In this document: positions 6,100 through 55,159 of the stretch, piece after piece
How the letters are laid out: every line of letters starts with the position of its first letter
Numbering within the stretch: position 1 is the stretch's first letter
Assembly (NCBI GenBank): GCA_012838035.1
Contig: DUQB01000145.1
Span: 1 to 56,216, forward strand
DNA: 56,216 bases
Direction: 5' to 3'
Origin: Bacillota bacterium
Lineage (GTDB): Bacteria; Bacillota; Limnochordia; DTU080
Position numbers and translations under genes: made by a program
The notes under the pieces: generated by a model
What the model saw: only the letters and a program-made list of their open reading frames with translations
What the model was told of the DNA's origin: nothing
Database searches by the model: none

Positions 6100-7767
6100 T
6101 TAGTTTTCCATCACCACGGGCAAGATCATGGGACGCCGCCTGGTTCGCTCCCACAAGAAGCTGGAGAGCACTTCACGCACCTGATTCTTGACCATGCTCC
6201 ACTCGCTCAAATCTCTCTCCGCGCAAGCCTCCAAAGTCTCCACCACTTTGGCTTTAACCTCTTCAATCATCGTTTCGGATTCCTTCATATACACAAACCC
6301 GCGAGACACAATTTCCGGACCGCTGACCACTACGCCGGTCTGCTTACTGATGCCGACAACCACTACCAGAATGCCGTCTTGGGCCAGCTGCTGACGATCG
6401 CGGAGTACAACGGTGCCTACATCGCCGACGCCTAAGCCGTCCACCATTACCGAACCGGCTTCCACCTTAGCCGTTTTACGGATACTTTTGGCGTTCATCT
6501 CGATCATATCGCCAATATCGGTCAAAATAATGTTTTCTTTGGGAATACCTACTTGCTCCGCCAGCCTGGCATGGTGCACCAACATCCGGTACTCGCCGTG
6601 AATGGGGATAAAGTAACGCGGTTGTGTCAGGTTGAGCATTAGCTTTAACTCCTCCTGACTCGCGTGACCCGAAACATGGACGCCGGATACGGAGTGATAG
6701 ATGACGTGGGCGCCTTGTCGGAACAAATGATTGATGGTTTTGCCAATTAACCGCTCATTGCCCGGAATCGGCGAAGCGCTGATAATCACCGTGTCGCCCG
6801 ATTCAATCTCTATTTTGCGGTGCTCCGCCATGGCCATACGCGTTAAAGCGGCCATAGGTTCGCCTTGACTACCTGTAGAGATGATGACGATCCGCTCAGG
6901 ATCATATGCATCGACGTCGGCTACATCAACCAGCAAATTGTCGGGAACTGTGAGGTATCCCAAGCGCGATGCAATGGCTACGTTGTTAATCATACTGCGG
7001 CCGACAACACACACTTTCCGGTTAAAACGCACTGCCGCATCCATAATCTGCTGAATGCGATGCACATTGGAAGCGAACGTAGCCACGACAATGCGTCCTT
7101 TGGCGCGAGAGAACGCTTCCATAAATGTTTCTCCCACCACTTTTTCCGAGAGAGTGAAACCAGGGCGTTCCGCATTGGTACTATCGGAAAGCAGGCACAA
7201 AACCCCTTTAGCGCCAAGTTCCGCCAACTTCTGCAGATCGGTGACCTGCCCATTGATGGGCGTATGATCGATCTTGAAGTCGGTGGCGTATAACAGAGTA
7301 CCTACCGGCGAATGTACGGCAATGGCCACTACATCGGCCAAGCTATGGTTCACATGGATAAACTCAAAGGTCAGAGCGCCTAGTTCCAGTCGCGTGTTTT
7401 CATCGATTTCGCGTAACTCCACGCTATTGCGGATGCGATGCTCCTCCAGCTTCCCCTCAACTAATCCCAAGGTCAGTCGGGTACCGTACACCGGCACGTT
7501 GATTTTCCGCAGGACATGGGGCAATGCGCCCACATGGTCCTCGTGCGCATGGGAGAGGATGATCGCGCGAATCCGATCGCGGTTTTCCTCCAAGTAGCTG
7601 ATATCCGGGATGACCAAGTCGACGCCGAGCATCTCTTCTTCGGGGAACATGCCGCCGCAATCCAAGACCACGAGGTCCTCACCATATCCGACAACCCACA
7701 TGTTCTTACCAAACTCACCAACACCGCCAAGCGGCACCAAAACCAAATTCATTTTTGCGTCCTTCAC
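6100..7767 (-). CDS. rnj: Ribonuclease J
   Basis: 555 aa; metallo-beta-lactamase motif ILSHAHEDHVGALPH, beta-CASP region, RNase J C-terminal domain. Confidence 0.95.
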   Translation of the reverse strand: MKDAKMNLVLVPLGGVGEFGKNMWVVGYGEDLVVLDCGGMFPEEEMLGVDLVIPDISYLEENRDRIRAIILSHAHEDHVGALPHVLRKINVPVYGTRLTLGLVEGKLEEHRIRNSVELREIDENTRLELGALTFEFIHVNHSLADVVAIAVHSPVGTLLYATDFKIDHTPINGQVTDLQKLAELGAKGVLCLLSDSTNAERPGFTLSEKVVGETFMEAFSRAKGRIVVATFASNVHRIQQIMDAAVRFNRKVCVVGRSMINNVAIASRLGYLTVPDNLLVDVADVDAYDPERIVIISTGSQGEPMAALTRMAMAEHRKIEIESGDTVIISASPIPGNERLIGKTINHLFRQGAHVIYHSVSGVHVSGHASQEELKLMLNLTQPRYFIPIHGEYRMLVHHARLAEQVGIPKENIILTDIGDMIEMNAKSIRKTAKVEAGSVMVDGLGVGDVGTVVLRDRQQLAQDGILVVVVGISKQTGVVVSGPEIVSRGFVYMKESETMIEEVKAKVVETLEACAERDLSEWSMVKNQVREVLSSFLWERTRRRPMILPVVMEN

Positions 7768-8303
7768 TAAACAAAAACCACCTCATCAAAATATTTGCCG
7801 ATAATTGCTTCAACACATGGGATAGATCGCAGTCCAGGTATGCTTAAAACAAGGCTGCACGCGCTAACAGCATGCCGCCTAAAGTTCAGAAACACATGCG
7901 CTAAGGCATCGATGCGCCGGTAAAACAAGCCCTTACGGCATCAATACGCAGTATAGTCATGTCAGCAGATACCACCGGGCTCAGACCGCCGTTGAGGAGA
8001 ACAGGCCCAACTTGAGCTTGTGAGCAACCGACTCGCAGACAACAGTATTCCCTATGTATAACAAAAGCTCTCCTGCATTACAAGATATGTGTCGTGAGCG
8101 GCAAATGCCCCACAAAGCGTTTCCGCTCTACTCGGGAGAGGTTTGGCTGGACGGCCGACTAGGAAGCGTGAGAAAAGCATTGCCGTCGTTACGTATTATG
8201 CTGCGCGGAAATGGCTGTGCGCCACATATCGGACAGTACTTATCATAGCACATTGGTATTCACTATGGTTACTGATGTCGGCTCTTTCTACATCACGCAG
8301 CAA

Positions 8304-8350
8304 CCACCAGGGATGGTCCACAGGTACTGCGACCTGGGCGGCCCTGGTGG
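8304..8350. other. Strong nested hairpin in unexplained 670 bp intergenic region
   Basis: CCACCAGGG ... CCCTGGTGG (9 bp perfect) enclosing AGGT-ACTGCG-ACCT-type inner stem; no adjacent U-tract on either strand. Confidence 0.5.
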
Positions 8351-8438
8351 ATTACATGCGAGAATGCGAGTTGAGAGAACATGCCGACACTGTGCTTTGT
8401 GGACGGTTGTATGCTAAGTAGGTAAGCCTAGCACCGTA

Positions 8439-11400
8439 TTAGATCTCCACGATCCCATCGAATACCTTCTTACAATCACCTGTTTTGTAGACGGTCTCAT
8501 CCGTATATTTGATGATCATGTCGCCGCCGAGCAAGCGGACTTTTACATCAACGCCTTTCTCACAATACCCGTTGAGCGTCGCCGCTACCACAGAGGCGCA
8601 CGCTCCGGTTCCACAAGCGAGAGTCTCACCATTGCCCCGCTCCCACACACGCATACGCAGTTCATTCTCCCCCGTTACTTCGACGAACTCCGTATTTACC
8701 CGATCCGGGAACAACTCATGGTGCTCGAACAAAGGGCCGATCTCTTCTAGGTCGAGCGCATCGACGTTGTCGCAGAACACTACCGCGTGCGGGTTACCCA
8801 TCGACACGCAGGTGATCTCGTATTCTTTACCATTAACCTCAATCGGTCTGGCTATGACCCTCTCCCCGGAAAGCTTGACCGGTATCTTTTCAGGTGCCAG
8901 TTCGGCGCGTCCCATGTCTACCTTGACCATGGACACTCGCCCGTTTTGGGTAAAGACCTCTAAGTCCTTAATGCCGCTGAGCGTCTCTATCTGCATGCGC
9001 TGTTTCTTCACCATATCATTGTCGTATAGGTATTTCGCCACGCAACGAATCGCGTTGCCGCTCATACGGCCTTCGCTGCCGTCCAGGTTAAACATGCGCA
9101 TTTTGGCGTCCGCCACATCTGAGCGCATGATCAGAACGATGCCGTCGCAACCGACCCCGTAATGCCGATCACTTAGCAGCACCGACAATGACTCGGGCGA
9201 CTCAATCTCGGTATCAAAGCAATTGACGTAGATATAATCGTTGCCACAGCTTTGCATCTTGGTAAACTTAAGCAGAATGCGTTCCTTGCGCAAGTTGTTG
9301 ATATTCACCAGCTCGGTGTTGATCTCGCTATAGTGCGAGAGTAAACTGTCGGCAAGCGCATTGGCCGTATCAATTGATGTCAGACACGGAATGCCCAACA
9401 CACAGGCCTTTCTGCGAATCTTGACGCTGTCGGAAGCCGGATCGCGTCCTTTGGTCGACGTCGAGATGATGTAACTGACCTTCCCGCTCTCCAGCAGCGT
9501 GGAAATATTATCATCAGCATTCTCATGGATCTTGTTGACGGTCTGCACTTTCAGACCTTTGGCATTGAGCAACTGCGCGGTACCGCGGGTACCGTACAGA
9601 GAGAAACCCAACTCCGCGAATTTCTCGGCCACGTTGATAATCTCCAGTTTATCGGAGTCGCGCACCGTAATGAGAACGCCGCCGCGCCGCTGCATCTTAT
9701 ACCCAGCGGCAATCAGCCCCTTGTACAGCGCCTCTTGCAAGTTCTTGCCCAAACCTAGCACTTCGCCGGTCGATTTCATCTCCGGACCTAAGTGGGTATC
9801 GACATCGGTCAGTTTTTCGAACGAGAATACGGGCACCTTTACCGCCACATACGGAGGTACCGGCGCAATCCCCGACACATACCCCAAGTCGGCAAGCTTC
9901 TCGCCCATGCTTACTCTCGTGGCGAGCCCGCACATGTTGATACCGGTAACCTTACTAATATACGGCACAGTACGCGAAGCCCGCGGGTTCACCTCAATAA
10001 CCCAGATCTCTCCCTGATAGAGCACATATTGGATGTTGATCAGACCCCTGACATCCAGCGCCCGGCACAGCTTCCGCGTGATCTCAAAGATGCGATCGGC
10101 CAGGCCGTCATCAATATGCATAGGCGGGTAGACCGCTATGCTGTCGCCGGAGTGAATGCCCGTGCGCTCAATATGCTCCATGATCCCCGGTATCAGCACG
10201 TGCTCCCCGTCGCAGATCGCATCCACCTCTATCTCCAGGCCGCTCAGGTACTTATCGATGAGTATCGGATTCTCTTGCTTGGTGCGAAGGATGATCTCCA
10301 TGTACTCTTTTATATCCTCAGGCGAGAAGGCAATGATCATATTTTGTCCGCCCAGCACGTAAGAGGGTCGTATCAGCACAGGGTAGCCTAATCCCTCCGC
10401 CGCGGCGAGCGCTTCAGCTTCGGTCATAACTCCTAATCCCGGCGGCCGTTTGAGCCCGAGTTGCTCCAAAAGTAGATCGAAGCGTTTACGATCTTCACTG
10501 ATATCGATACTCTCCGCTGAAGTACCAAGGATTTTGACCCCGCGGCGATGCAGTTCTTTGGTCAGTTTTATGGCTGTTCCGCCGCCAAAGGCAACCACCA
10601 CGCCGATAGGCTTTTCTATCTCAATGATACTCATTACGTCGTCGATGCACAGCGGTTCGAAGTAGAGTCGATCCGCCGTATCGAAGTCGGTGGACACGGT
10701 TTCCGGATTGTTGTTGATGACGATCACTTCATACCCCATCTGCTTCAATGTCCAAACGCAATGCACGCAGGCATAATCGAACTCGATACCCTGTCCGATG
10801 CGGATGGGGCCGCTGCCTAGTACGATCACTCTGGGTTTCTCACTCTTTTTGATAAACGGCAGAGCTTCGTTCTCACCGGCGGCTGCCAACGAGTAGAAAT
10901 ACGGCGTTTGCGCGGCGAACTCACCTGCGCAGGTGTCCACCATTTTGTAAACGAGCGATTCGGCCGCCGGCACGCTTTGTCGGTCCCGCTTGGCTAAGCG
11001 AGCTAAGGCGGACAAAAACCAGCGGTCTACTTTGGTAATCCGGTAGATGTCATCAATGGCCACAGCACGTTTGACAGCCTCATACAGCACAAAAATGCGT
11101 TGGTCTGTGACCTGATGCAGCATGGCGCGTATTTCGTCATCGCTTTTCGTTTTTAACAGAGGCAAATCCAGGCTGTTTAAGCCGATTTCCGCGCCGCGAA
11201 TCGCCTTGAGAAGTGCGTCTTCAAAGGTATCGGCAATCGCCATGACTTCACCGGTCGCCTTCATCTGCGTGCCGAGTTCCTTGTCGGCGTAGACAAACTT
11301 ATCAAAGGGCCATTTGGGGAACTTCACCGCCACATAGTCGATGGTTGGCTCAAACGAGGCATAGGTTGTTCCGGTAACGGCGTTTACAATTTCATCCAAG

Positions 11401-12389
11401 TGATAACCCAGGGCGATTTTGGTCGCGACCTTGGCTATCGGGTATCCGGTGGCTTTACTGGCCAGGGCGGACGACCGAGAAACTCGCGGATTGACCTCAA
11501 TAACCGCATACTCCATGCTGTCGGGGTTCAGTGCGAACTGAATATTACAACCACCTTCAACGCCGAGTTCACGAATGATCGCCAATGCAGCCGCATTCAG
11601 CATCTGATACTCTATGCTCGACAAGGTGACCGCCGGCGCAATGACAATGCTGTCCCCGGTGTGAATGCCCACCGGATCAATATTCTCCATGGAGCAGACC
11701 GTGACCGCATTGTCTGCCTGATCGCGAATGACTTCAAACTCAATCTCTTTCCAGCCGGCTACCGACTTTTCTATGAGCACCTGATGAATGGGAGAAAGCG
11801 CTAACCCGTTGGATGCAATCTCTATAAGGCGCCACTTGTCGGCTGCCATACCGCCGCCGGTGCCCCCTAAGGTAAAGGCCGGCCGCACTATAACCGGATA
11901 CCCTGCTTCCTCCGCGAAATCGACGGCTTCCTTAACAGTTGAAGCTATTGCAGAAGGTATGACCGGTTGGTTGATCTTCTGCATGGTTTCTTTAAACAGA
12001 CGCCTATCTTCCGCTCTATCAATCGTCTCCCGTGAACTGCCCAGCAATCTGATGCCCAATTCATCGAGAAGTCCGCTGCGCGCCAACTGCATACTGAGTG
12101 TCAGACCGCTTTGGCCGCCTAATCCGGACAGAATACTGTCCGGTAGTTCCTTTTCCACAATCCGCTTGACGGTAGTAAGGGTTAACGGTTCAATATAGAT
12201 CCTATCCGCAATATGCTTGTCGGTCATGATGGTTGCAGGATTGGAGTTAACCAACACAATCTCTATGCCGTCTTCGCGCAACACCCGACAAGCCTGTGTA
12301 CCGGCATAGTCAAATTCAGCGGCCTGTCCGATCACAATCGGCCCGGAGCCGATTACCATGACTTTTTTTATATTTTTATCGCGCGGCAT
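8439..12389 (-). CDS. carB-dapF: Fused carbamoyl-phosphate synthase large subunit (about 1040 aa) and diaminopimelate epimerase (about 275 aa)
   Basis: Single 1316 aa ORF; full-length CarB with two ATP-grasp halves and MGS-like domain, followed by complete DapF with GNAIRC and ACGTGA catalytic-Cys motifs; RBS GGAGG before ATG; overlaps carA by 14 nt. Confidence 0.93.
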   Translation of the reverse strand: MPRDKNIKKVMVIGSGPIVIGQAAEFDYAGTQACRVLREDGIEIVLVNSNPATIMTDKHIADRIYIEPLTLTTVKRIVEKELPDSILSGLGGQSGLTLSMQLARSGLLDELGIRLLGSSRETIDRAEDRRLFKETMQKINQPVIPSAIASTVKEAVDFAEEAGYPVIVRPAFTLGGTGGGMAADKWRLIEIASNGLALSPIHQVLIEKSVAGWKEIEFEVIRDQADNAVTVCSMENIDPVGIHTGDSIVIAPAVTLSSIEYQMLNAAALAIIRELGVEGGCNIQFALNPDSMEYAVIEVNPRVSRSSALASKATGYPIAKVATKIALGYHLDEIVNAVTGTTYASFEPTIDYVAVKFPKWPFDKFVYADKELGTQMKATGEVMAIADTFEDALLKAIRGAEIGLNSLDLPLLKTKSDDEIRAMLHQVTDQRIFVLYEAVKRAVAIDDIYRITKVDRWFLSALARLAKRDRQSVPAAESLVYKMVDTCAGEFAAQTPYFYSLAAAGENEALPFIKKSEKPRVIVLGSGPIRIGQGIEFDYACVHCVWTLKQMGYEVIVINNNPETVSTDFDTADRLYFEPLCIDDVMSIIEIEKPIGVVVAFGGGTAIKLTKELHRRGVKILGTSAESIDISEDRKRFDLLLEQLGLKRPPGLGVMTEAEALAAAEGLGYPVLIRPSYVLGGQNMIIAFSPEDIKEYMEIILRTKQENPILIDKYLSGLEIEVDAICDGEHVLIPGIMEHIERTGIHSGDSIAVYPPMHIDDGLADRIFEITRKLCRALDVRGLINIQYVLYQGEIWVIEVNPRASRTVPYISKVTGINMCGLATRVSMGEKLADLGYVSGIAPVPPYVAVKVPVFSFEKLTDVDTHLGPEMKSTGEVLGLGKNLQEALYKGLIAAGYKMQRRGGVLITVRDSDKLEIINVAEKFAELGFSLYGTRGTAQLLNAKGLKVQTVNKIHENADDNISTLLESGKVSYIISTSTKGRDPASDSVKIRRKACVLGIPCLTSIDTANALADSLLSHYSEINTELVNINNLRKERILLKFTKMQSCGNDYIYVNCFDTEIESPESLSVLLSDRHYGVGCDGIVLIMRSDVADAKMRMFNLDGSEGRMSGNAIRCVAKYLYDNDMVKKQRMQIETLSGIKDLEVFTQNGRVSMVKVDMGRAELAPEKIPVKLSGERVIARPIEVNGKEYEITCVSMGNPHAVVFCDNVDALDLEEIGPLFEHHELFPDRVNTEFVEVTGENELRMRVWERGNGETLACGTGACASVVAATLNGYCEKGVDVKVRLLGGDMIIKYTDETVYKTGDCKKVFDGIVEI

Positions 12390-13455
12390 ATTTAGTTACC
12401 TCCATATTGCGGATGAAGCGGTCGAATAAGAACTCGCAGTTACTCGTCGCCGGGTTGAACTGTACGGAAAACGACGGCATACCTTTATACCGGATTCCTT
12501 CACATGTTCCGTCGTTTACATTGACAAACCACTCTTCTGCCGTATTACCGTCGATGGTGTCGGAATTGACGACATACCCGTGATTTTGGCTCGTAATTAT
12601 AATCCGGCGGGATGTTTTGTCTCTCACCGGCTGATTTAGGCCGCGGTGCCCGTATTTTAACTTGTTAGTGGCGAACCCGTGAGCTAATGCCAGCAGTTGA
12701 TGACCCAAGCCGATACCAAACACCGGCAGCGCAGGGTTAATCAACGCCTGCAGGTTATCGACGATCTCCGGATTGTCCGCCGGATCGCCGGGTCCGTTGG
12801 AGAGTACGATGCCATCCGGTTCCACGCTAAGGATTTCTTCCGGCGTACTGTTGCCGGGAAAAGCCCAGAGCTCACAACCTCTGTTTACCAAGGCTCTCCT
12901 GATGCTCTCTCTGCAACCGAAGTCCAGTATGGCAACCCGAAAGCGAGGGGATGCGGCGGAGAAGAAGACGCGTTCCTTAGGAGAAACCTGCTCAACCGGT
13001 TTGGCGATGCGATAGGTTTTGATGGCGGCGGCTTCGTTCGCTGCCGGCGGCGTAGCAGTGATGCGGCAGTTCATTACGCCATGTTCCCGGATGATCCTGG
13101 TCAGAGCTCTGGTATCGATGTGACAAACGCCGACGAGACCTCGCTCGTGCATAAACGCTTCCAAGGTGCCTTTGCTGCGAAAATTAGACGGATCGGGACA
13201 AGGATGCTTAACGATATAGGCGGCAGGTTGAACGGAGTCGCTCTCAAAGTCTTCCGGGATGATGCCGTAGTTGCCGACTAAAGGGAAAGTGTGCAGAACA
13301 ATTTGCCCGTAGTAGTTGGGATCCGTGAGAGTCTCTAAGTAACCGATGACGCCGGTGGTGAAGACCAGCTCACCTGTAACCTCACCTATGGCACCGAAGT
13401 ACTCACCTGTAAATGTAGCACCATTCTCCAGAATCAGGTATGCCGGTTTAGACAT
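12376..13455 (-). CDS. carA: Carbamoyl-phosphate synthase small subunit
   Basis: MSKPAYLILENGATFTGE...; GATase class I region; start chosen at ATG 13455 (RBS GGAGG), not the upstream TTG at 13482. The usual GATase Cys position reads FGIGLGHQ rather than FGICLGHQ. Confidence 0.92.
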   Translation of the reverse strand: MSKPAYLILENGATFTGEYFGAIGEVTGELVFTTGVIGYLETLTDPNYYGQIVLHTFPLVGNYGIIPEDFESDSVQPAAYIVKHPCPDPSNFRSKGTLEAFMHERGLVGVCHIDTRALTRIIREHGVMNCRITATPPAANEAAAIKTYRIAKPVEQVSPKERVFFSAASPRFRVAILDFGCRESIRRALVNRGCELWAFPGNSTPEEILSVEPDGIVLSNGPGDPADNPEIVDNLQALINPALPVFGIGLGHQLLALAHGFATNKLKYGHRGLNQPVRDKTSRRIIITSQNHGYVVNSDTIDGNTAEEWFVNVNDGTCEGIRYKGMPSFSVQFNPATSNCEFLFDRFIRNMEVTKYAAR

Positions 13456-13863
13456 TGTATGCTCCTCCAAGTTAATGAACAAATCTCTCGCGACTTTAAG
13501 GTACTGTGCGTTTGCGACTCTCTGGCGATAAACAGCCCAAATACTACGTGCTTGATCTGCAGTTCACTCGAGATGGCCTGAGCGCCTTAGGATATTTTCC
13601 GACCTGGGTGGACGCGCATGCATCTCCTAAGCCCTTATAATATCAAAAGACCCGACTCTGTGGAACTGTGCTGCGAAAATAAGTCCATCTCGCGGGAAGG
13701 CTTTTTTATCTGCAGTTACTGCCGTACTATCGGGTATGGGCAATGGGAGCGGTGCTTTTGATGCGCGACGCGGTTGCCGAAAGAGAGTTACTTTGGTCAT
13801 GTAGGCATTACGGGATGGGTTCCGTCTGTGAGACGAAAGAGGCATGCAATCTTTACAACGACG

Positions 13864-14577
13864 CTACTCCGCCAGTTGGGACCATCTGACCACATTGACG
13901 GGCACAGACAACCAATATTGTCTATCGGAGGCATTGTTGATAATAACCTGCTGTGCGCCCGGCTCCGCTTGAATCCAGGTTTCTGCCCCCAAATACGCTA
14001 AAACGTGCTGCCCATCTTGCGTTACGGCTAAATCTCCGGGCAGCAGAACACTGTGGTCAAGCGTCTGTATGGAAGGGGCGCTCATGACATACCGCGTCAA
14101 TCCTTTGTAGCCGGTACCAAGGGCTAAAGCGGAAGCATCCCGTAACCAGGTGCTTATACCTTGGCGAACTGCCGTCGGATTCAATCGCACCAACCCGAGA
14201 TGCAAGTAGGCATCTACCAGAGCGAGACGAACCAAACCGGAACAGTCGATGCCGATCTTATTCTCCCCGCCGAACACGTAGCGTGTTCCCTCATATTCAC
14301 GCAGGTGCTGCACATAAAAGCTGCGCAGCGCGGCCGGTGCAATTTCGCGACCAGGTAGAGCGGTCAGCAACAAAAATCCCGCGCCGCTGACGGCGAGTAT
14401 GGTAGACAACCACTTTCTGGGCAGGGAGAAGAAAACCGCGCCCAGCCAAAATAGCGGCACGCCGATAAGAATCACTAAACGCCCTTTCCCAAAACCGATG
14501 GGAAACAACAATAGCAACAGTATCAGGATGCCCGACATGAGCCACAGGCGTTTGATTAAGCGTGTGTTTATGATCAT
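13864..14577 (-). CDS. Membrane-anchored NlpC/P60-like cysteine peptidase domain protein
   Basis: Two N-terminal hydrophobic helices, then YVFGGENKIGIDCSGLVR ... PGDLAVTQDGQHVLAYLG (Cys and His motifs of NlpC/P60). Confidence 0.75.
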   Translation of the reverse strand: MIINTRLIKRLWLMSGILILLLLLFPIGFGKGRLVILIGVPLFWLGAVFFSLPRKWLSTILAVSGAGFLLLTALPGREIAPAALRSFYVQHLREYEGTRYVFGGENKIGIDCSGLVRLALVDAYLHLGLVRLNPTAVRQGISTWLRDASALALGTGYKGLTRYVMSAPSIQTLDHSVLLPGDLAVTQDGQHVLAYLGAETWIQAEPGAQQVIINNASDRQYWLSVPVNVVRWSQLAE

Positions 14578-14630
14578 AGGAATACGCCCTACCCTCTACC
14601 TTGTGCGCAGCCTCATTACGTCACATCAAG

Positions 14631-15155
14631 TTAAGAATCGCTTGCTTTGCAGCTTGCAGTCTGTTCGCCCACCCATTGCTCAAGTGTTCCTGCTTGCTGT
14701 TTCTCTAACAGATCGTCCAGGAACGACAGGCGCGGGACTCCTTGTGTCAACATGAACTCATACATCCTTAACATGCTTTCGATGCCCGCTGTTTGGGCTG
14801 CCGGAGAGTCTCCCCCGACAGCGGGATTCCCTATTAAATACGCTGCTTGACCAAACAGGGGTTGTATCACCAATGCCGCCGCATACTGCTGATCATAATC
14901 AGCTTCCATGATCGGGGTGATGGGACCCATGCAGGCTACCACCGCAATATCCGGCACCTCGGAGAGCCAAGCAAACAAGTAGCTGCGTATATTGCCGGCT
15001 TGATCCGACAACGGTTTTTGTTCCAGCAATGCTGTTAATTCCACAAATAGCCTGCGTTCTTCCGGAGTAGACTGACCGCGCGCTGCAGCCGCGCCGACGG
15101 CTGTGAGTACGCAACCTAATACCAAAATAATGACCGCAAGTTTCCGAAATCCCAT
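14631..15155 (-). CDS. Secreted/anchored hypothetical protein
   Basis: ORF with signal-like N-terminus MGFRKLAVIILVLGCVLTAVGAAAA; AAGGGGGG RBS 7 nt upstream of ATG at 15155; directly upstream of the NlpC/P60-like gene. Confidence 0.7.
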   Translation of the reverse strand: MGFRKLAVIILVLGCVLTAVGAAAARGQSTPEERRLFVELTALLEQKPLSDQAGNIRSYLFAWLSEVPDIAVVACMGPITPIMEADYDQQYAAALVIQPLFGQAAYLIGNPAVGGDSPAAQTAGIESMLRMYEFMLTQGVPRLSFLDDLLEKQQAGTLEQWVGEQTASCKASDS

Positions 15156-15264
15156 AACCACGCCCCCCTTGTTAAACAGCATCGTCGCGCAGAATGAGCT
15201 TGCGCCGTAGAATCATACTTAGCGGCAAACACAAAACCACCTTGACGATTTCATGCCGACAAAC

Positions 15265-15293
15265 AAGTTCATCCTTTTTGTGGCATATCCTGC
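15265..15293 (-). promoter_or_regulatory. Candidate sigma-H-type promoter upstream of the secreted hypothetical gene
   Basis: GCAGGATAT-N11-GATGAACTT compared with RnAGGAwWW-N11/12-RnnGAATWW (one mismatch). Confidence 0.4.
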
Positions 15294-15397
15294 TAAAAAG
15301 TTGGAAGCATCATAATACAAAAAATCAATAGGAAGAAAGCTAAATGCATCTGACCTACCGGACCGGAGAGTCTAAATAGATGAACCTACCTACGGCG

Positions 15398-15459
15398 CAA
15401 AAAAAACGCCCTGTACCCAAGGAAGCAAATGCATCAATCGCTCCCGGGCAACAGGGCGT
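15398..15459 (-). terminator. Rho-independent terminator of the dapB-to-dapA unit
   Basis: Minus strand ACGCCCTGT...ACAGGGCGT (9 bp) with inner pairing, then TTTTTTTT. Confidence 0.9.
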
Positions 15460-15478
15460 GCAATGACGGACAATACGA

Positions 15479-16357
15479 CTAGCAGAGCTCCAACTCTAAG
15501 GCAGCAGCCTTTATAACCTGCTTCTCCTCTTCGCGCAGTTCGCATAAAGGCAACCGTGTCGGTCCGCAATGCAGACCGATTAAGCTCATCGCCCACTTCA
15601 CCGGGATGGGGTTGGTGGTAACGAACAACGCCTTGAACAATGGCGTTAAGCGATGATGTATGCTGATGGCCGTCTGGACCTCTCCCGCGGCAAAATGCTT
15701 AAGCATAGCTTTGATCTCTTTACCGACCAAATGCGAGGCTACGCTCACTACTCCGCAACCTCCTACCGCCATAATAGGCAGCGTAAGGCTGTCGTCACCC
15801 GAATAAACCAAGAAATTATCTGAAGTGAGGCGGGCAATTGCGGATACCTGTTCCAGGTTGCCGCTCGATTCCTTTACCCCGACCACATTCGGCACGGTGG
15901 ACGCCAACTTGGCTAAGCTCTCCGGCGTCATATTCATGCTTGTGCGCCCCGGGATGTTGTAGATGAGGCAAGGTACGTCCACAGATTTGGCTATGGCGGT
16001 GAAATGAGAGATGATTCCCGCTTGTGGAGGCTTATTATAATAGGGCACTACCAAAAGGAGCGAGTCCGCTCCGGCTTCCACAGCTCTCTCTGATAATTCA
16101 ATGCTATGTGTGGTATCGTTACTACCCGTTCCGGCCATAACACGCGCGCGTGACCCCACGGCTTCCCGAACTGCCTTAATCAAAGCAATCTTTTCATCGT
16201 CGCTTAATGTAGGCGATTCACCGGTGGTACCGGAAACTAAGATCGTATCAGTCCCATTCTCCACCAAGTGCTGCGCCAACTGCTTGGCCTTCTCCAAATC
16301 AACATCCTGATTTGTAGTCATGGGAGTGACCATTGCTGTAACTAACGGACCAAACAT
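15479..16357 (-). CDS. dapA: 4-hydroxy-tetrahydrodipicolinate synthase
   Basis: 292 aa; DHDPS motifs GTTGESPTL, VPYYNKPPQ, YNIPGRTS, GVKESSG. Confidence 0.96.
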   Translation of the reverse strand: MFGPLVTAMVTPMTTNQDVDLEKAKQLAQHLVENGTDTILVSGTTGESPTLSDDEKIALIKAVREAVGSRARVMAGTGSNDTTHSIELSERAVEAGADSLLLVVPYYNKPPQAGIISHFTAIAKSVDVPCLIYNIPGRTSMNMTPESLAKLASTVPNVVGVKESSGNLEQVSAIARLTSDNFLVYSGDDSLTLPIMAVGGCGVVSVASHLVGKEIKAMLKHFAAGEVQTAISIHHRLTPLFKALFVTTNPIPVKWAMSLIGLHCGPTRLPLCELREEEKQVIKAAALELELC

Positions 16358-33778: not shown

Positions 33779-34573
33779 CTACCCCAACTTCTGGTGTTGC
33801 TGGGGCGTTTCCACGTCTATACGTCCAAACCGAATCGCATCTACCAGGTGGGCAATAAAGGATGCATTGGTGGGCTTAGCTCGTTCCTGATCGACGGTGT
33901 AATGAAAGAGCCGGTCGATGAGGCCCAAATTACCATGGGTCCACGTCACCTCAAGCGCATAGCGAATAGCCCGCTCCACTCTCGGCGGCGTAGTACGCCA
34001 CTGCTCGGCAATGGTCGGGTAGAGCGCCTTCATTACCCGTGTAAGGTAGGTTTCGTCATGATAACACAGCACAATTGCCGTGCATAGGTAGGAATACCCT
34101 TTAAACCGCTCCGGGACGCCCAAATGCTGTAAACAGCGGCGCACCTGCGCCTGCAATTGGTCGGTATCGTAGTCAGCGCGGTCTTCAGAAAAAGGCGACG
34201 TGAGAACCTGGCGTAGTCGTTGTACTAATATGGACAGCTCAAAAGGCTTAAGAACATAGTAGTCCACTCCCGCGGCGGTAGCCTGGGAAATGCTGGAGAC
34301 AGACCCTTCCGTCGTGTAGATGACGATTTTGAGTTCGGGGGCTGCCTTGTAAAGGGCTTTAAGCAGACACCTTCCCGCACTTTGCGCCATAAAGTCCAAC
34401 AACAGCAGATCAGGCTTGTGCTCAGCAATCGCTGACAAGACTTGTTCAGGTTGGAACACGGTAGCAACCACTTGCATGTCTTCCACATGCTTTAGATACT
34501 CACACACGTTGGAACAAGAGACCTGATCGGCATCAGCAATGATCAGTCGGTGAACAACCAACGCTAACCACAA
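33779..34573 (-). CDS. spo0A: Stage 0 sporulation protein A (atypical receiver)
   Basis: C-terminal DNA-binding domain (ALYPTIAEQWRTTPPRVERAIRYALEVTWTHGN, KPTNASFIAHLVD) strongly Spo0A-like; located next to spoIVB; start codon uncertain (TTG at 34573 abuts the GGAGG). Confidence 0.9.
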   Translation of the reverse strand: MWLALVVHRLIIADADQVSCSNVCEYLKHVEDMQVVATVFQPEQVLSAIAEHKPDLLLLDFMAQSAGRCLLKALYKAAPELKIVIYTTEGSVSSISQATAAGVDYYVLKPFELSILVQRLRQVLTSPFSEDRADYDTDQLQAQVRRCLQHLGVPERFKGYSYLCTAIVLCYHDETYLTRVMKALYPTIAEQWRTTPPRVERAIRYALEVTWTHGNLGLIDRLFHYTVDQERAKPTNASFIAHLVDAIRFGRIDVETPQQHQKLG

Positions 34574-51736: not shown

Positions 51737-53011
51737 TTAGCGCACTAGCGTCGTGACGTTTCCCATGCTCACCAAGATCGTGATGCTGATGAAAAACATC
51801 AGCCCAACCGTGAGCATACAGGCCAAAACCAGAGTCAGCGAACCAGCCAAGCTGTTCAAAGCATCCACCAAGCGCTCATCGCTCAGCGGTTCAATGAGCG
51901 CCGTAACCAGGCGAAAAATAAACAAGACGGAAAACACTTTCAAAGCCGGAAACGCGACGATGACAAATATGGCAGCCATGCCGAACACGCCGATCGCGCT
52001 CTTGATCAGCTGCGATCCGCCAATCACGATATCCAATGCTTCGGCCATCCTGGAACCGACTACCGGCACAAATGTCCCGGTGAGAAATTTGGCGGTCTTA
52101 ATGGCAATGCTGTCCGTAACAGGAGCAATCGCCCCCCGAATGGACAAAACGCCGAAGAACAGAATGAAGAGCAAGCCCAGAAGCGTGATGGTCCATTGCC
52201 GCACCAGCCCCGCCATCTTTTTCATAGGAAAGTCCTTGGATAAACTGCCCAGTATACTCAGTACGGCAGAGAGAAAGGTCAGCGGCAGTATGACGTTCCG
52301 CACCAGAGTGGCCACCAAAGCGACCATACTCACGAACAGTGGATGGTACAAGGTGGCCGTCGTTACAGCCCCAGCCGCAGCGATCATCGCTGTTAGCAGC
52401 GGCAATGCGGCGTGCATCAGGTCGACCATGGTGTCTAGCGTAGAGCCTGCTACATCAACAGCTGCCCGAAACGACTGCAAGCCGATATATAGCAGTGCTA
52501 AGAAAGACAGCGCAAACGCCGGTTCCGCCACACCGTGCGTTGGAAAAACATGCGTCAGATTACGCAAGATGGCGCAGAACACGGCTAGTAGCGCCAACTG
52601 GCCTAAGAGCTGAGAATTGAACACAATTTCCCGCACCAAGAAACTGGCGAAACGTGTGATAAGATGCAAAAGACTGAAGCGATCGCCCAGTCCGCCGTCC
52701 GCCACAATCCGCCGTACATCCCATTCCGGCAATTCCGCGCGCAGCTCACTGCTTAAACCGGCAATCACCTGATCTAAGGCGCTGGTATCGAGCAGGTTAA
52801 TCTGGCTCTCGAGCGCTTGCTCCAGTAAGAAGCGATGATCATCTTGGGCTACGGGCGAATCGGCGTTCATGGGAGCCTGCGGCGGATAAGGCGCCCATGT
52901 CTCTTCACCCGAGAATGCCGCCCAACCGCTATTAGTAGCGGTAAAAAGAAACAGGATGCAACAAGCGACTAGGTAGACGCATTTACATTGACCAAACCGA
53001 AAGGAGTTCAT
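51737..53011 (-). CDS. spoIIIAE: Stage III sporulation protein AE
   Basis: Polytopic SpoIIIAE-like protein, operon position. Confidence 0.95.
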   Translation of the reverse strand: MNSFRFGQCKCVYLVACCILFLFTATNSGWAAFSGEETWAPYPPQAPMNADSPVAQDDHRFLLEQALESQINLLDTSALDQVIAGLSSELRAELPEWDVRRIVADGGLGDRFSLLHLITRFASFLVREIVFNSQLLGQLALLAVFCAILRNLTHVFPTHGVAEPAFALSFLALLYIGLQSFRAAVDVAGSTLDTMVDLMHAALPLLTAMIAAAGAVTTATLYHPLFVSMVALVATLVRNVILPLTFLSAVLSILGSLSKDFPMKKMAGLVRQWTITLLGLLFILFFGVLSIRGAIAPVTDSIAIKTAKFLTGTFVPVVGSRMAEALDIVIGGSQLIKSAIGVFGMAAIFVIVAFPALKVFSVLFIFRLVTALIEPLSDERLVDALNSLAGSLTLVLACMLTVGLMFFISITILVSMGNVTTLVR

Positions 53012-53397
53012 AACAGCCCCACCAGCGCGTCCATGATACCCGCAACAATAGGTACGCAGAGTAAAAGGATGATCACCTTACCGGCCAGCTCTACCATCAT
53101 GGCGGTGCTCTCTTCCTTGGCATCCTTGGCTAGTTGCGCGCCGAATGCCGAAATATAGGCCACACCTACAGCTTTAACCACGATCGCCATATAAGCCGGC
53201 TTAATCTCCGCCCGCCCGCCCAACTCTACAAATACGGCGATGACCTCTTTCAAGGGAGACAAGAGGACCAAAAGCATCAGTATCATAAAACCGGCAGCCA
53301 GCTGCGTCGCCAAGGCTGCTTGGGTCACGCTGCGCAGATAACTGAGCAAGACCGCCGTCACAAGGGCTAGTCCGACAAAACGTGTAATATCCTCCAC
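53008..53397 (-). CDS. spoIIIAD: Stage III sporulation protein AD
   Basis: Small polytopic membrane protein, operon position. Confidence 0.93.
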   Translation of the reverse strand: MEDITRFVGLALVTAVLLSYLRSVTQAALATQLAAGFMILMLLVLLSPLKEVIAVFVELGGRAEIKPAYMAIVVKAVGVAYISAFGAQLAKDAKEESTAMMVELAGKVIILLLCVPIVAGIMDALVGLL

Positions 53398-53450
53398 CTG
53401 ATGTTCATCCTATCTTTGCCGGGGAAGTACAGATTTAGATGCCGGGCGTT

Positions 53451-53648
53451 TCACCACAACCTAAAAACCGACTCGACATTGGCAAAAAGCTGACCTAGCA
53501 TTTGCACCAGCCATAAAAGGACAATAACTACACCGGCCAAAGAGAGCATCTGTGCTTGTTCTTGCCGCCCTGCCTGCGTTAGGAAAATGTGGAGTACGGC
53601 GATGACGATACCCAACCCGGCAATTTTGTATATAGCTGTGATATCCAT
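53451..53648 (-). CDS. spoIIIAC: Stage III sporulation protein AC
   Basis: 65 aa MDITAIYKIAGLGIVIAVLHIFLTQAGRQEQAQM. Confidence 0.95.
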   Translation of the reverse strand: MDITAIYKIAGLGIVIAVLHIFLTQAGRQEQAQMLSLAGVVIVLLWLVQMLGQLFANVESVFRLW

Positions 53649-53663
53649 TAAACAAGCACCTCT

Positions 53664-54176
53664 TTAAAATAGTAACAGCGCCATGATCATACCACCGGCT
53701 ACGCCCAGGTAACGCCACATACGGCAGGCGGCTTCCAAACGATCTCGGGCACGTTCTTGCTCCTGCTGCAACAAACGCCCGGCCAACTGGATGTGGCGTA
53801 CATGGTCCTCAGCGCTCCAAGGCCCCCAAGCCGCCGCCAAACCAGCCAATACAGCGGCTTCTCGCTCTGAAAGCCGCCGAGTGCGTCGCCAATCTTGCAC
53901 TGCAGAACGCCAGGCATCGGCGGGCCGCATACCCTGCGCCATATAAATACCGACTGATGCGTAAAAAGGCGCGACCAAAGGCGCTGCCTGCGCCGCCTTG
54001 TGAAAACTGTCCGCCAAATTGGTCGCCAAATAAGCAATCTCCGCTTCCAGTACGGTCAGGGATACCAAAAAGGCTTCGCTCGTCGCCAATGCCCGCCGTA
54101 TCCTGCAGGCGCCGCGTTCACCTAACAATCCCGCGGCCAAGATTAAACATCCGGCACCACTTAGTTTCAGCCACAC
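53664..54176 (-). CDS. spoIIIAB: Stage III sporulation protein AB
   Basis: 170 aa, SpoIIIAB-like (GEREAAVLAGL, RLLQQEQERARDRLEAACRMWRYLGVAGG). Confidence 0.9.
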   Translation of the reverse strand: MWLKLSGAGCLILAAGLLGERGACRIRRALATSEAFLVSLTVLEAEIAYLATNLADSFHKAAQAAPLVAPFYASVGIYMAQGMRPADAWRSAVQDWRRTRRLSEREAAVLAGLAAAWGPWSAEDHVRHIQLAGRLLQQEQERARDRLEAACRMWRYLGVAGGMIMALLLF

Positions 54177-55159
54177 GACTCACCCACCACCCAGGCTCTC
54201 TTCGGCTGGTCTCCGATTTCCTTGCGCGTCAGCTGAATTATATCCTCCAGGGTACCCGGACCTTGGCGCCTACTGAGCAGAAGCACCCGCTCAAAGGCGC
54301 CCTGATCCAGCAACCGAGCCAATACAGGGCGGCGTCGCAACTCGACTATGGACGCCCCATGGGCTGTAGCCACAAGAGTGACGCCGCTGTTGAGCGCCTC
54401 TTCCAGAGCGCGTCCGTCAGCGTCCGCGCCTATCTCATCGGTGGCTATCACCTGTGGCCCCATGGCACGCAACAGCAACCCGATCCCTAAAGACTTAGGA
54501 CAACCATCCAGGACATCAGTGCGCATGCCTACATCGAGTTGCGGTAAGCCCCGAAAACATGCGGCCAGCTCAGAGCGTTCATCGGCTACCGCCACACGCA
54601 TACCCGGCAATCCCAAACGACCTACGCCGTTACTTACTTGCCGAATAAGGTCGCGCAAAAGCGTCGTCTTACCACATCCCGGGGCGGACGCAATCAATGT
54701 GTGGTACAAACGCCCTCCCTGTACCAAGTGCGGTAGAGCCGCATCGGCTGCGCCGAAGACCTGGCGGGCCAGTCGGACGTTAAAACTGCTGAAATGCCTG
54801 ATGGTGCGGATACCGCCGCCTTCCGGCACCACCTGGCCCACCAATCCGACCCGGTGTCCGCCTGGTAGCGTAATGAAGCCTTGTTTCACCTGTTGCTCCA
54901 CAGCATACAACGAGGCTTGACTGACCGCCTCGATAAAGCTGTTTGCGTCTTCTGCGCTCCAGTTGATGCCCGCCTGGGCTGAGCGGACTATCCCATGGTC
55001 GCCTAAAAAAGCGTCTCGATCGGCGAGGACCAGCATCACCGGTCGTTGTATACGCAAACGAACCTCTTCAACCTGGGATGCCGTATCGGCGGGGATACGC
55101 CGTAAGGCTTGCCGAATGCGTGCAGGGAAATAGGGGATTGCCTGTTCCAGTGCAGACAT
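54167..55159 (-). CDS. spoIIIAA: Stage III sporulation protein AA (ATPase)
   Basis: Walker A APGCGKTTLLRDLIRQ, VADERSEL, IATDEIG. Confidence 0.95.
   Translation of the reverse strand: MSALEQAIPYFPARIRQALRRIPADTASQVEEVRLRIQRPVMLVLADRDAFLGDHGIVRSAQAGINWSAEDANSFIEAVSQASLYAVEQQVKQGFITLPGGHRVGLVGQVVPEGGGIRTIRHFSSFNVRLARQVFGAADAALPHLVQGGRLYHTLIASAPGCGKTTLLRDLIRQVSNGVGRLGLPGMRVAVADERSELAACFRGLPQLDVGMRTDVLDGCPKSLGIGLLLRAMGPQVIATDEIGADADGRALEEALNSGVTLVATAHGASIVELRRRPVLARLLDQGAFERVLLLSRRQGPGTLEDIIQLTRKEIGDQPKRAWVVGESCG

Follow-up and report, generated by a model that had tools for sequence, protein, structure and literature searches.

Architecture of the carB::dapF fusion

The window analyzed here is a 56,216-nucleotide stretch of a Bacillota draft genome (GenBank assembly GCA_012838035.1, contig DUQB01000145.1, positions 1 to 56,216). 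It carries an open reading frame (ORF) in which carB, for the large subunit of carbamoyl phosphate synthetase (CPS), is joined in frame to dapF, for diaminopimelate (DAP) epimerase. According to the ORF listing, the fusion lies on the minus strand (8439..12389), begins with ATG and runs for 1316 codons without interruption. Its start overlaps the stop of carA by 14 nt. The carA gene (12376..13455, minus strand; 359 aa) has its ATG at 13455 and a GGAGGAG ribosome-binding site (RBS) at 13462-13468.

Matches to hidden Markov models (HMMs) confirmed the earlier sequence-only reading of a single 1316-aa carB-dapF ORF. The fusion exceeded the curated CarB cut-offs across the full CarB length (NF003671, 1428.5 bits against a cut-off of 599; TIGR01369, 1377.7 bits against 1027). 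Pfam and NCBIfam matches, together with alignment to E. coli CPS (1bxr), place CarB at residues 1 to ~1028 (9306..12389, minus strand), with two ATP-grasp halves followed by the MGS allosteric domain (residues 916-1004). The DapF domain occupies residues 1039-1316 (8439..9275, minus strand) and belongs to the DapF family by both sequence and fold. TIGR00652 matched residues 1041-1314 with 281.8 bits (cut-off, 114.65). An AlphaFold model of the last 437 residues, which was considered for domain folds and not for inter-domain placement, had a mean pLDDT of 90 overall and a confident DapF fold. A Foldseek search with the modeled domain returned DapF structures (2otn and 9mro) as the best PDB matches.

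The junction maps to residues ~1028-1038 (nt 9276-9306), within the interval of 9255-9340 proposed earlier. The linker between MGS and DapF (residues 1017-1038; 9276..9341, minus strand) is the least confident stretch of the model and lacks a conserved start codon or Shine-Dalgarno sequence. A start with Shine-Dalgarno spacing was found at the junction of 2 of 88 fusions, a frequency close to background (3%); the window fusion is not one of the two. Production of free DapF from an internal start, suggested earlier for a GTG or TTG codon, was therefore rejected as a general rule, although a weak internal start may operate within the window gene alone. An artifact of sequencing or assembly was ruled out because the identical in-frame junction is present in 79 of the 80 best-matching public relatives. 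All tblastn matches of the junction to plasmids were below 60% identity, and no RNA elements were found by Rfam at the gathering score between 7500 and 15500.

Catalytic residues of DapF, CarA, and CarB

The DapF family is recognized by a PROSITE-type signature, N-x-D-G-S-x4-C-G-N-[GA]-x-R. The corresponding region of the window fusion, NLDGSEGRMSGNAIR, failed to match it, in contrast with those of two other genomes (G134, the nearest relative, and G094) and with a second dapF in the window's own genome (on contig C150). Alignments and the pattern test agree that Ser1110 (codon AGC, 9060..9062, minus strand) replaces the catalytic Cys73 of the E. coli and H. influenzae enzymes. Ser1110 lies in the context RMSGNAIR, and the cysteine within the string GNAIRC is not the catalytic one. 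The second catalytic cysteine, Cys217, is kept as Cys1259 (8613..8615, minus strand) in the ACGTG motif, as seen in alignments and by the motif test. The earlier statement that both catalytic-cysteine motifs are intact thus does not hold for the first.

The rest of the domain is well preserved, with 1 of 67 conserved scaffold columns altered. Among the pocket positions that were checked, the E. coli residue is kept everywhere except at Cys73 and at His7, which is Gln here and likewise in many fused members. In PddB, a DapF-type racemase, changing either cysteine to serine left <0.1% activity, and the same paper cites a comparable Cys-to-Ser loss for M. tuberculosis DapF (PMC8225329). These results suggest that the window DapF domain is folded but most likely epimerase-dead.

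The small subunit shows a parallel loss, which the sequence-only reading had missed. CarA is a clear family member (NF009475, 408.7 bits against 221; TIGR01368, 374.9 bits against 307.35) but lacks the entire Cys-His-Glu glutaminase triad. In alignments, Gly249 (GGC, 12709..12711, minus strand) replaces the nucleophile (E. coli Cys269), Asn334 (12454..12456, minus strand) replaces the catalytic His (E. coli His353), and Ala336 (12448..12450, minus strand) replaces the catalytic Glu. CarA is also altered at 5 conserved columns (median, 0).

In CarB, all 19 of the catalytic and ATP-binding positions checked, in both ATP-grasp halves (R129 to R848, E. coli numbering), are identical. The window CarB is altered at 5 of the 463 columns that fused CarBs conserve, compared with a fused-CarB median of 3. 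One further feature absent from the earlier reading is a deletion of ~30 aa in the oligomerization domain after residue 470 (10975..10985, minus strand). Pfam CPSase_L_D3 matched only at 2-47 of 80, so the domain is incomplete; this is not decisive for CarB family membership. The alignments show the same deletion in 16 of 82 fused CarBs, namely, the window and 15 others that are mostly its near relatives. An FGGQT-to-FGGGT change at Gly604 (10578..10580, minus strand) is shared with G134.

Distribution, losses, and genomic setting

A scan of public genome contigs returned 579 relatives of the fusion, and architecture was assessed in the best 80. Of these, 79 were single-ORF carB::dapF fusions, bearing out the suspicion that databases might already hold such proteins. 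The hosts are mostly Bacillota (clostridial) metagenome-assembled genomes but also include an isolate, Sporotomaculum syntrophicum, and a Desulfoscipio geothermicus assembly. We found no publication on a carB::dapF fusion in the open-access literature, a search in which most subscription journals lay outside the scope. In a CarB tree of 112 rows, all 84 fused CarBs lie on one side of a single branch with support of 100 (quick method), and the window CarB nests inside this clade, also with support of 100 (quick method). The tree indicates that the fusion arose once. The DapF tree requires three changes between the fused and free states and nests one free DapF (L171) among the fused ones, which may reflect a later fission. 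That free dapF (L171:1703-2542) lies in an ANTAR-dapF-pyrG cluster without carB ahead of it. Several fusions were found on termite gut contigs labeled Treponema, Brevinematales, Chitinispirillia, or Planctomycetaceae (L109, L110, L111, L115, L116, L117, and L105), reflecting either transfer between gut phyla or misbinned contigs. In the five of these on the CarB tree (L109, L111, L115, L116, and L117), Cys73 is Gly, Ala, Ala, Ser, and Gly, respectively.

Losses like those in the window recur within the clade. On the fused CarB tree, at least eight changes of Cys73 and seven of the CarA triad are needed. When the 49 columns that free DapFs conserve are ranked by number of changes, Cys73 shares second place (8; median, 0), a pattern more indicative of lost catalysis than of general decay. 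Of 9 genomes that have a second carA, 5 have lost the CarA triad, compared with 2 of the 45 that do not (Fisher P = 7e-4); second-carA status was assigned by hand, with split pieces counted as one gene. For Cys73, the loss affects 17 of the 28 genomes that have a second dapF and 6 of the 34 that do not (Fisher P = 6e-4). Many of the genomes in these comparisons are incomplete.

Both DapF cysteines are altered, to Ser and Ala, in five fusions with Desulfallaceae, Syntrophomonadaceae, or Peptococcaceae labels (L142, L156, L157, L136, and L140); L157 is the Sporotomaculum syntrophicum fusion. Sporotomaculum and Desulfoscipio also have a separate DapF with intact cysteines (L188 and L189). In the L166 and L173 fusions, Cys73 and the CarA triad are both lost, with one carA and one dapF detected per genome; the hosts may be auxotrophs, or their assemblies may be incomplete.

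The fusion typically sits in a glutamine/nitrogen gene cluster with carA, pyrG, dapL, glnA, and an ANTAR regulator. In sampled stretches around 92 loci, pyrG was a neighbor in 36, an ANTAR protein in 28, dapL in 20, and glnA in 17. The order in G134 is glnA, an ANTAR regulator, a class II amidotransferase with a phosphoribosyltransferase domain, carA, carB::dapF, pyrG, nadE, and asnB; Pfam supports the glnA, ANTAR, amidotransferase, NAD synthase, and asparagine synthase assignments. A literature search for such a nitrogen cluster returned only general papers on ANTAR and glutamine synthetase.

The window presents a different setting. A composite protein search was carried out in G134 and in five relatives with the same gene order (G001 to G005). 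In these five, the gap between the RNase J gene and dapA is 176 to 539 bp, compared with 7711 bp in the window. The segment missing from the relatives (7768..15478; 7.7 kb) is flanked on the left by the RNase J gene (6100..7767, minus strand; best matches in the same family, 71 to 73%) and on the right by dapA (15479..16357, minus strand). Beyond the operon, it contains genes for an NlpC/P60 protein (13864..14577, minus strand; 237 aa, Pfam PF00877), unmatched in G001 to G005 at 1e-15, and for a 183-aa protein with no Pfam match (14631..15182, minus strand). The ~670 bp 3′ of the fusion stop (7768-8438) hold no listed ORF of at least 100 aa. The window CarB nests with that of G134, while CarBs of the host family (G001 and G002) fall in another clade. 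Given that the operon is absent from the RNase J-dapA interval of relatives and that host-family CarBs group apart from the window CarB, horizontal acquisition is probable and is the simplest reading. The sequence-only reading had attached significance to the adjoining DAP block (dapA/dapG/asd/dapB). With RNase J and dapA nearly adjacent in the five relatives, a functional link to this block is unsupported, and the proximity is probably incidental.

The contig itself appears to be native. Its recN, dxs, and spoIIIAA genes are single copy in the genome, and Dxs is closest to same-family genomes (67% identity, compared with 45 to 55% to fusion-bearing genomes). Contamination was rejected as an origin of the contig on these family-like housekeeping genes and on matching composition. 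The host is probably a spore former, since the window carries sporulation genes: by sequence appearance, a SpoIIIA-type block (53008-55159), and a Spo0A-type response regulator (33779-34573; Pfam Spo0A_C).

A separate dapF, which the earlier reading had recommended looking for, is present elsewhere in the genome. This genome is a draft of 253 contigs with 4.88% estimated contamination and was sampled in stretches. On contig C150 (L041), pyrG, carA, carB, dapF, and dapL are consecutive, with carB and dapF separate and 24 nt apart, and this dapF has both cysteines intact. The arrangement suggests how a carB::dapF fusion could arise. It serves as an analogy and not as a demonstrated ancestor, because the CarB of C150 occupies a long branch (1.08) outside the fused clade. 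The C150 PyrG is closest to that of G134 (67%, compared with 54 to 59% in the host's relatives), and this cluster may itself have been acquired.

Interpretation and relation to known systems

Sequence-level evidence covers the fusion, its distribution in a single clade, the residue losses, the intact CarB residues, and the inserted location. On this evidence, we consider it fairly probable that the window holds a horizontally acquired operon for a synthase that depends on ammonia, in which CarA has a structural role and the DapF domain is epimerase-dead. According to this model, carB and dapF would have fused once in a clostridial lineage, probably when the stop codon separating two neighbors in a glutamine/nitrogen cluster was lost, and the carA-carB::dapF operon would then have reached the window's genome horizontally. 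The second set on C150 (carA, carB, dapF, and dapL) would provide a glutamine-dependent synthase and an epimerase. Relieved of both duties, the acquired copy would have lost DapF Cys73 (now Ser) and the CarA triad (Gly/Asn/Ala in place of Cys/His/Glu) but kept the two synthetase active sites of CarB. Since the triad is lost while CarB is intact, we infer that carbamoyl phosphate is most likely made from free ammonia, with CarA retained as a structural subunit and DapF as a folded C-terminal module that no longer epimerizes. The large subunit of E. coli can make carbamoyl phosphate from ammonia (PMC6245113).

Several points weigh against this model. The association of triad loss with a second carA is borderline when phylogenetically independent pairs are counted (5:0, P = 0.0625), and that of Cys73 loss with a second dapF is not significant in such pairs. 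Cys73 has also been lost in six genomes in which only one DapF was detected. Lineage-specific changes in the window exceed those in its sister G134 for CarA (25 versus 2) and CarB (55 versus 16), and this faster change could mean general relaxation rather than kept function. Membership of C150 in the window's genome is likely, not proven.

The main rival is that the operon is a redundant duplicate on its way to becoming a pseudogene, with the catalytic losses as first signs of decay. The second set on C150 makes the operon redundant, the whole CarA triad is gone, and CarA and CarB are accelerated relative to G134, with CarA changed at otherwise conserved columns. However, ~1,675 codons carry no stop or frameshift, the CarB active sites are intact, the conserved columns of CarB and DapF are nearly unchanged, and the RBS and the 14-nt carA/carB overlap are retained. 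DapF is no faster than in G134 (12 versus 9 changes), and comparable losses are seen in other, unrelated fusions whose ORFs are uninterrupted. We regard a dying duplicate as unlikely. A working bifunctional enzyme, with CarB and DapF both active and coupled by the fusion, is less likely still for the window. The architecture is real, and the pocket positions checked are intact apart from Cys73 and the commonly replaced His7, but the signature is broken at Cys73 by a substitution that leaves almost no activity in this enzyme type (PMC8225329), the CarA triad is lost, and the genome has a separate intact dapF. Of the earlier idea that two complete enzymes are coupled in expression or stoichiometry, the physical fusion stands, and the completeness of DapF and of the partner CarA does not. 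Bifunctionality is plausible for the many relatives with Cys73 and Cys217 intact and one detected dapF; where, as in many relatives, the DapF of the fusion and its partner CarA are the only ones detected, the fusion is most likely truly bifunctional.

It can also be asked whether the dead DapF has become a ligand-binding or assembly module, which would be compatible with an ammonia-dependent synthase. The domain might sense DAP and regulate CarB beside MGS, or it might replace the lost oligomerization segment. Conservation of the scaffold despite the loss of the cysteine, the largely kept pocket, the mean pLDDT of 90, and the ~30-aa CarB deletion in the window's clade are all in line with such a role, as is the finding that E. 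coli DapF with both cysteines mutated still binds and activates RppH (PMC4227774). On the other hand, the pocket residues are, as far as shown, no better kept than other conserved positions, and their retention is not claimed as proof of ligand binding. The CarB deletion also occurs in relatives with catalytically intact DapF, and the inter-domain placement in the model is no more than predicted. We hold this role to be a tentative and rather unlikely proposal, and the same doubt applies to the broader form of the idea, in which a noncatalytic regulatory or assembly module (e.g., a DAP sensor) would be part of a bacterial ammonia-specific CPS that evolved, in lineages like that of the window, in parallel with vertebrate CPS1. 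A binning artifact, in which the window contig or C150 is foreign and the redundancy argument void, seems improbable. The draft state of the genome, its estimated contamination, and the affinity of the C150 PyrG to G134 would allow it, but the window's housekeeping genes are single copy and closest to the same family, and contigs C84 and C150 agree with each other and with the remaining sampled contigs in GC content and tetranucleotide profile.

The fusion resembles known systems in part. Animal CAD is a multifunctional CPS fusion that joins enzymes of one pathway, pyrimidine synthesis. Like CAD, the window protein holds CPS in one chain with another metabolic enzyme, but DapF belongs to lysine and peptidoglycan synthesis. 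The two-subunit layout, the carA-carB operon, both ATP-grasp sites, and MGS are as in bacterial CarA/CarB (E. coli 1bxr and 1t36), from which the window differs in its C-terminal DapF, shortened oligomerization domain, and CarA without a glutaminase triad. The DapF domain shares the full-length fold, most pocket residues, and Cys217 with free DapF (TIGR00652; 2otn); unlike free DapF, it forms the C terminus of CarB and has Ser naturally at position 73, a change engineered in the C73S mutant structure 2q9h. Vertebrate mitochondrial CPS1 (5dot) is ammonia specific, having kept its amidotransferase domain with Ser in place of the catalytic Cys while the synthetase sites are intact (PMC4655335). 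CPS1, which N-acetylglutamate activates, joins CarA and CarB in one chain, whereas the window CarA is separate and has lost all three triad residues, and DapF is fused at the end opposite to the fusion in CPS1. The two losses represent convergence and not common descent. E. coli DapF acting on RppH offers a precedent for a DapF fold working without its cysteines (PMC4227774), although there DapF is a separate protein acting in trans and here it is a fused domain.

Although the pathways of CPS and DAP epimerase are unrelated, many uncultured clostridia from gut, rumen, termite, and anaerobic habitats seem to rely on a single polypeptide for both activities. The fusion is a natural test of why enzymes of different pathways come to be joined, with a common nitrogen-cluster neighborhood rather than common chemistry, and of the fate of a redundant activity, in which the domain persists after its catalytic residue is lost. 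Annotation by family score alone would predict epimerase and glutaminase activities that the window copy very likely lacks. The recurrent loss of the CarA triad points to candidate bacterial ammonia-specific synthases. Further, if the fused DapF does act as a DAP sensor, it would tie the supply of arginine and pyrimidine precursors to the levels of lysine and peptidoglycan precursors.

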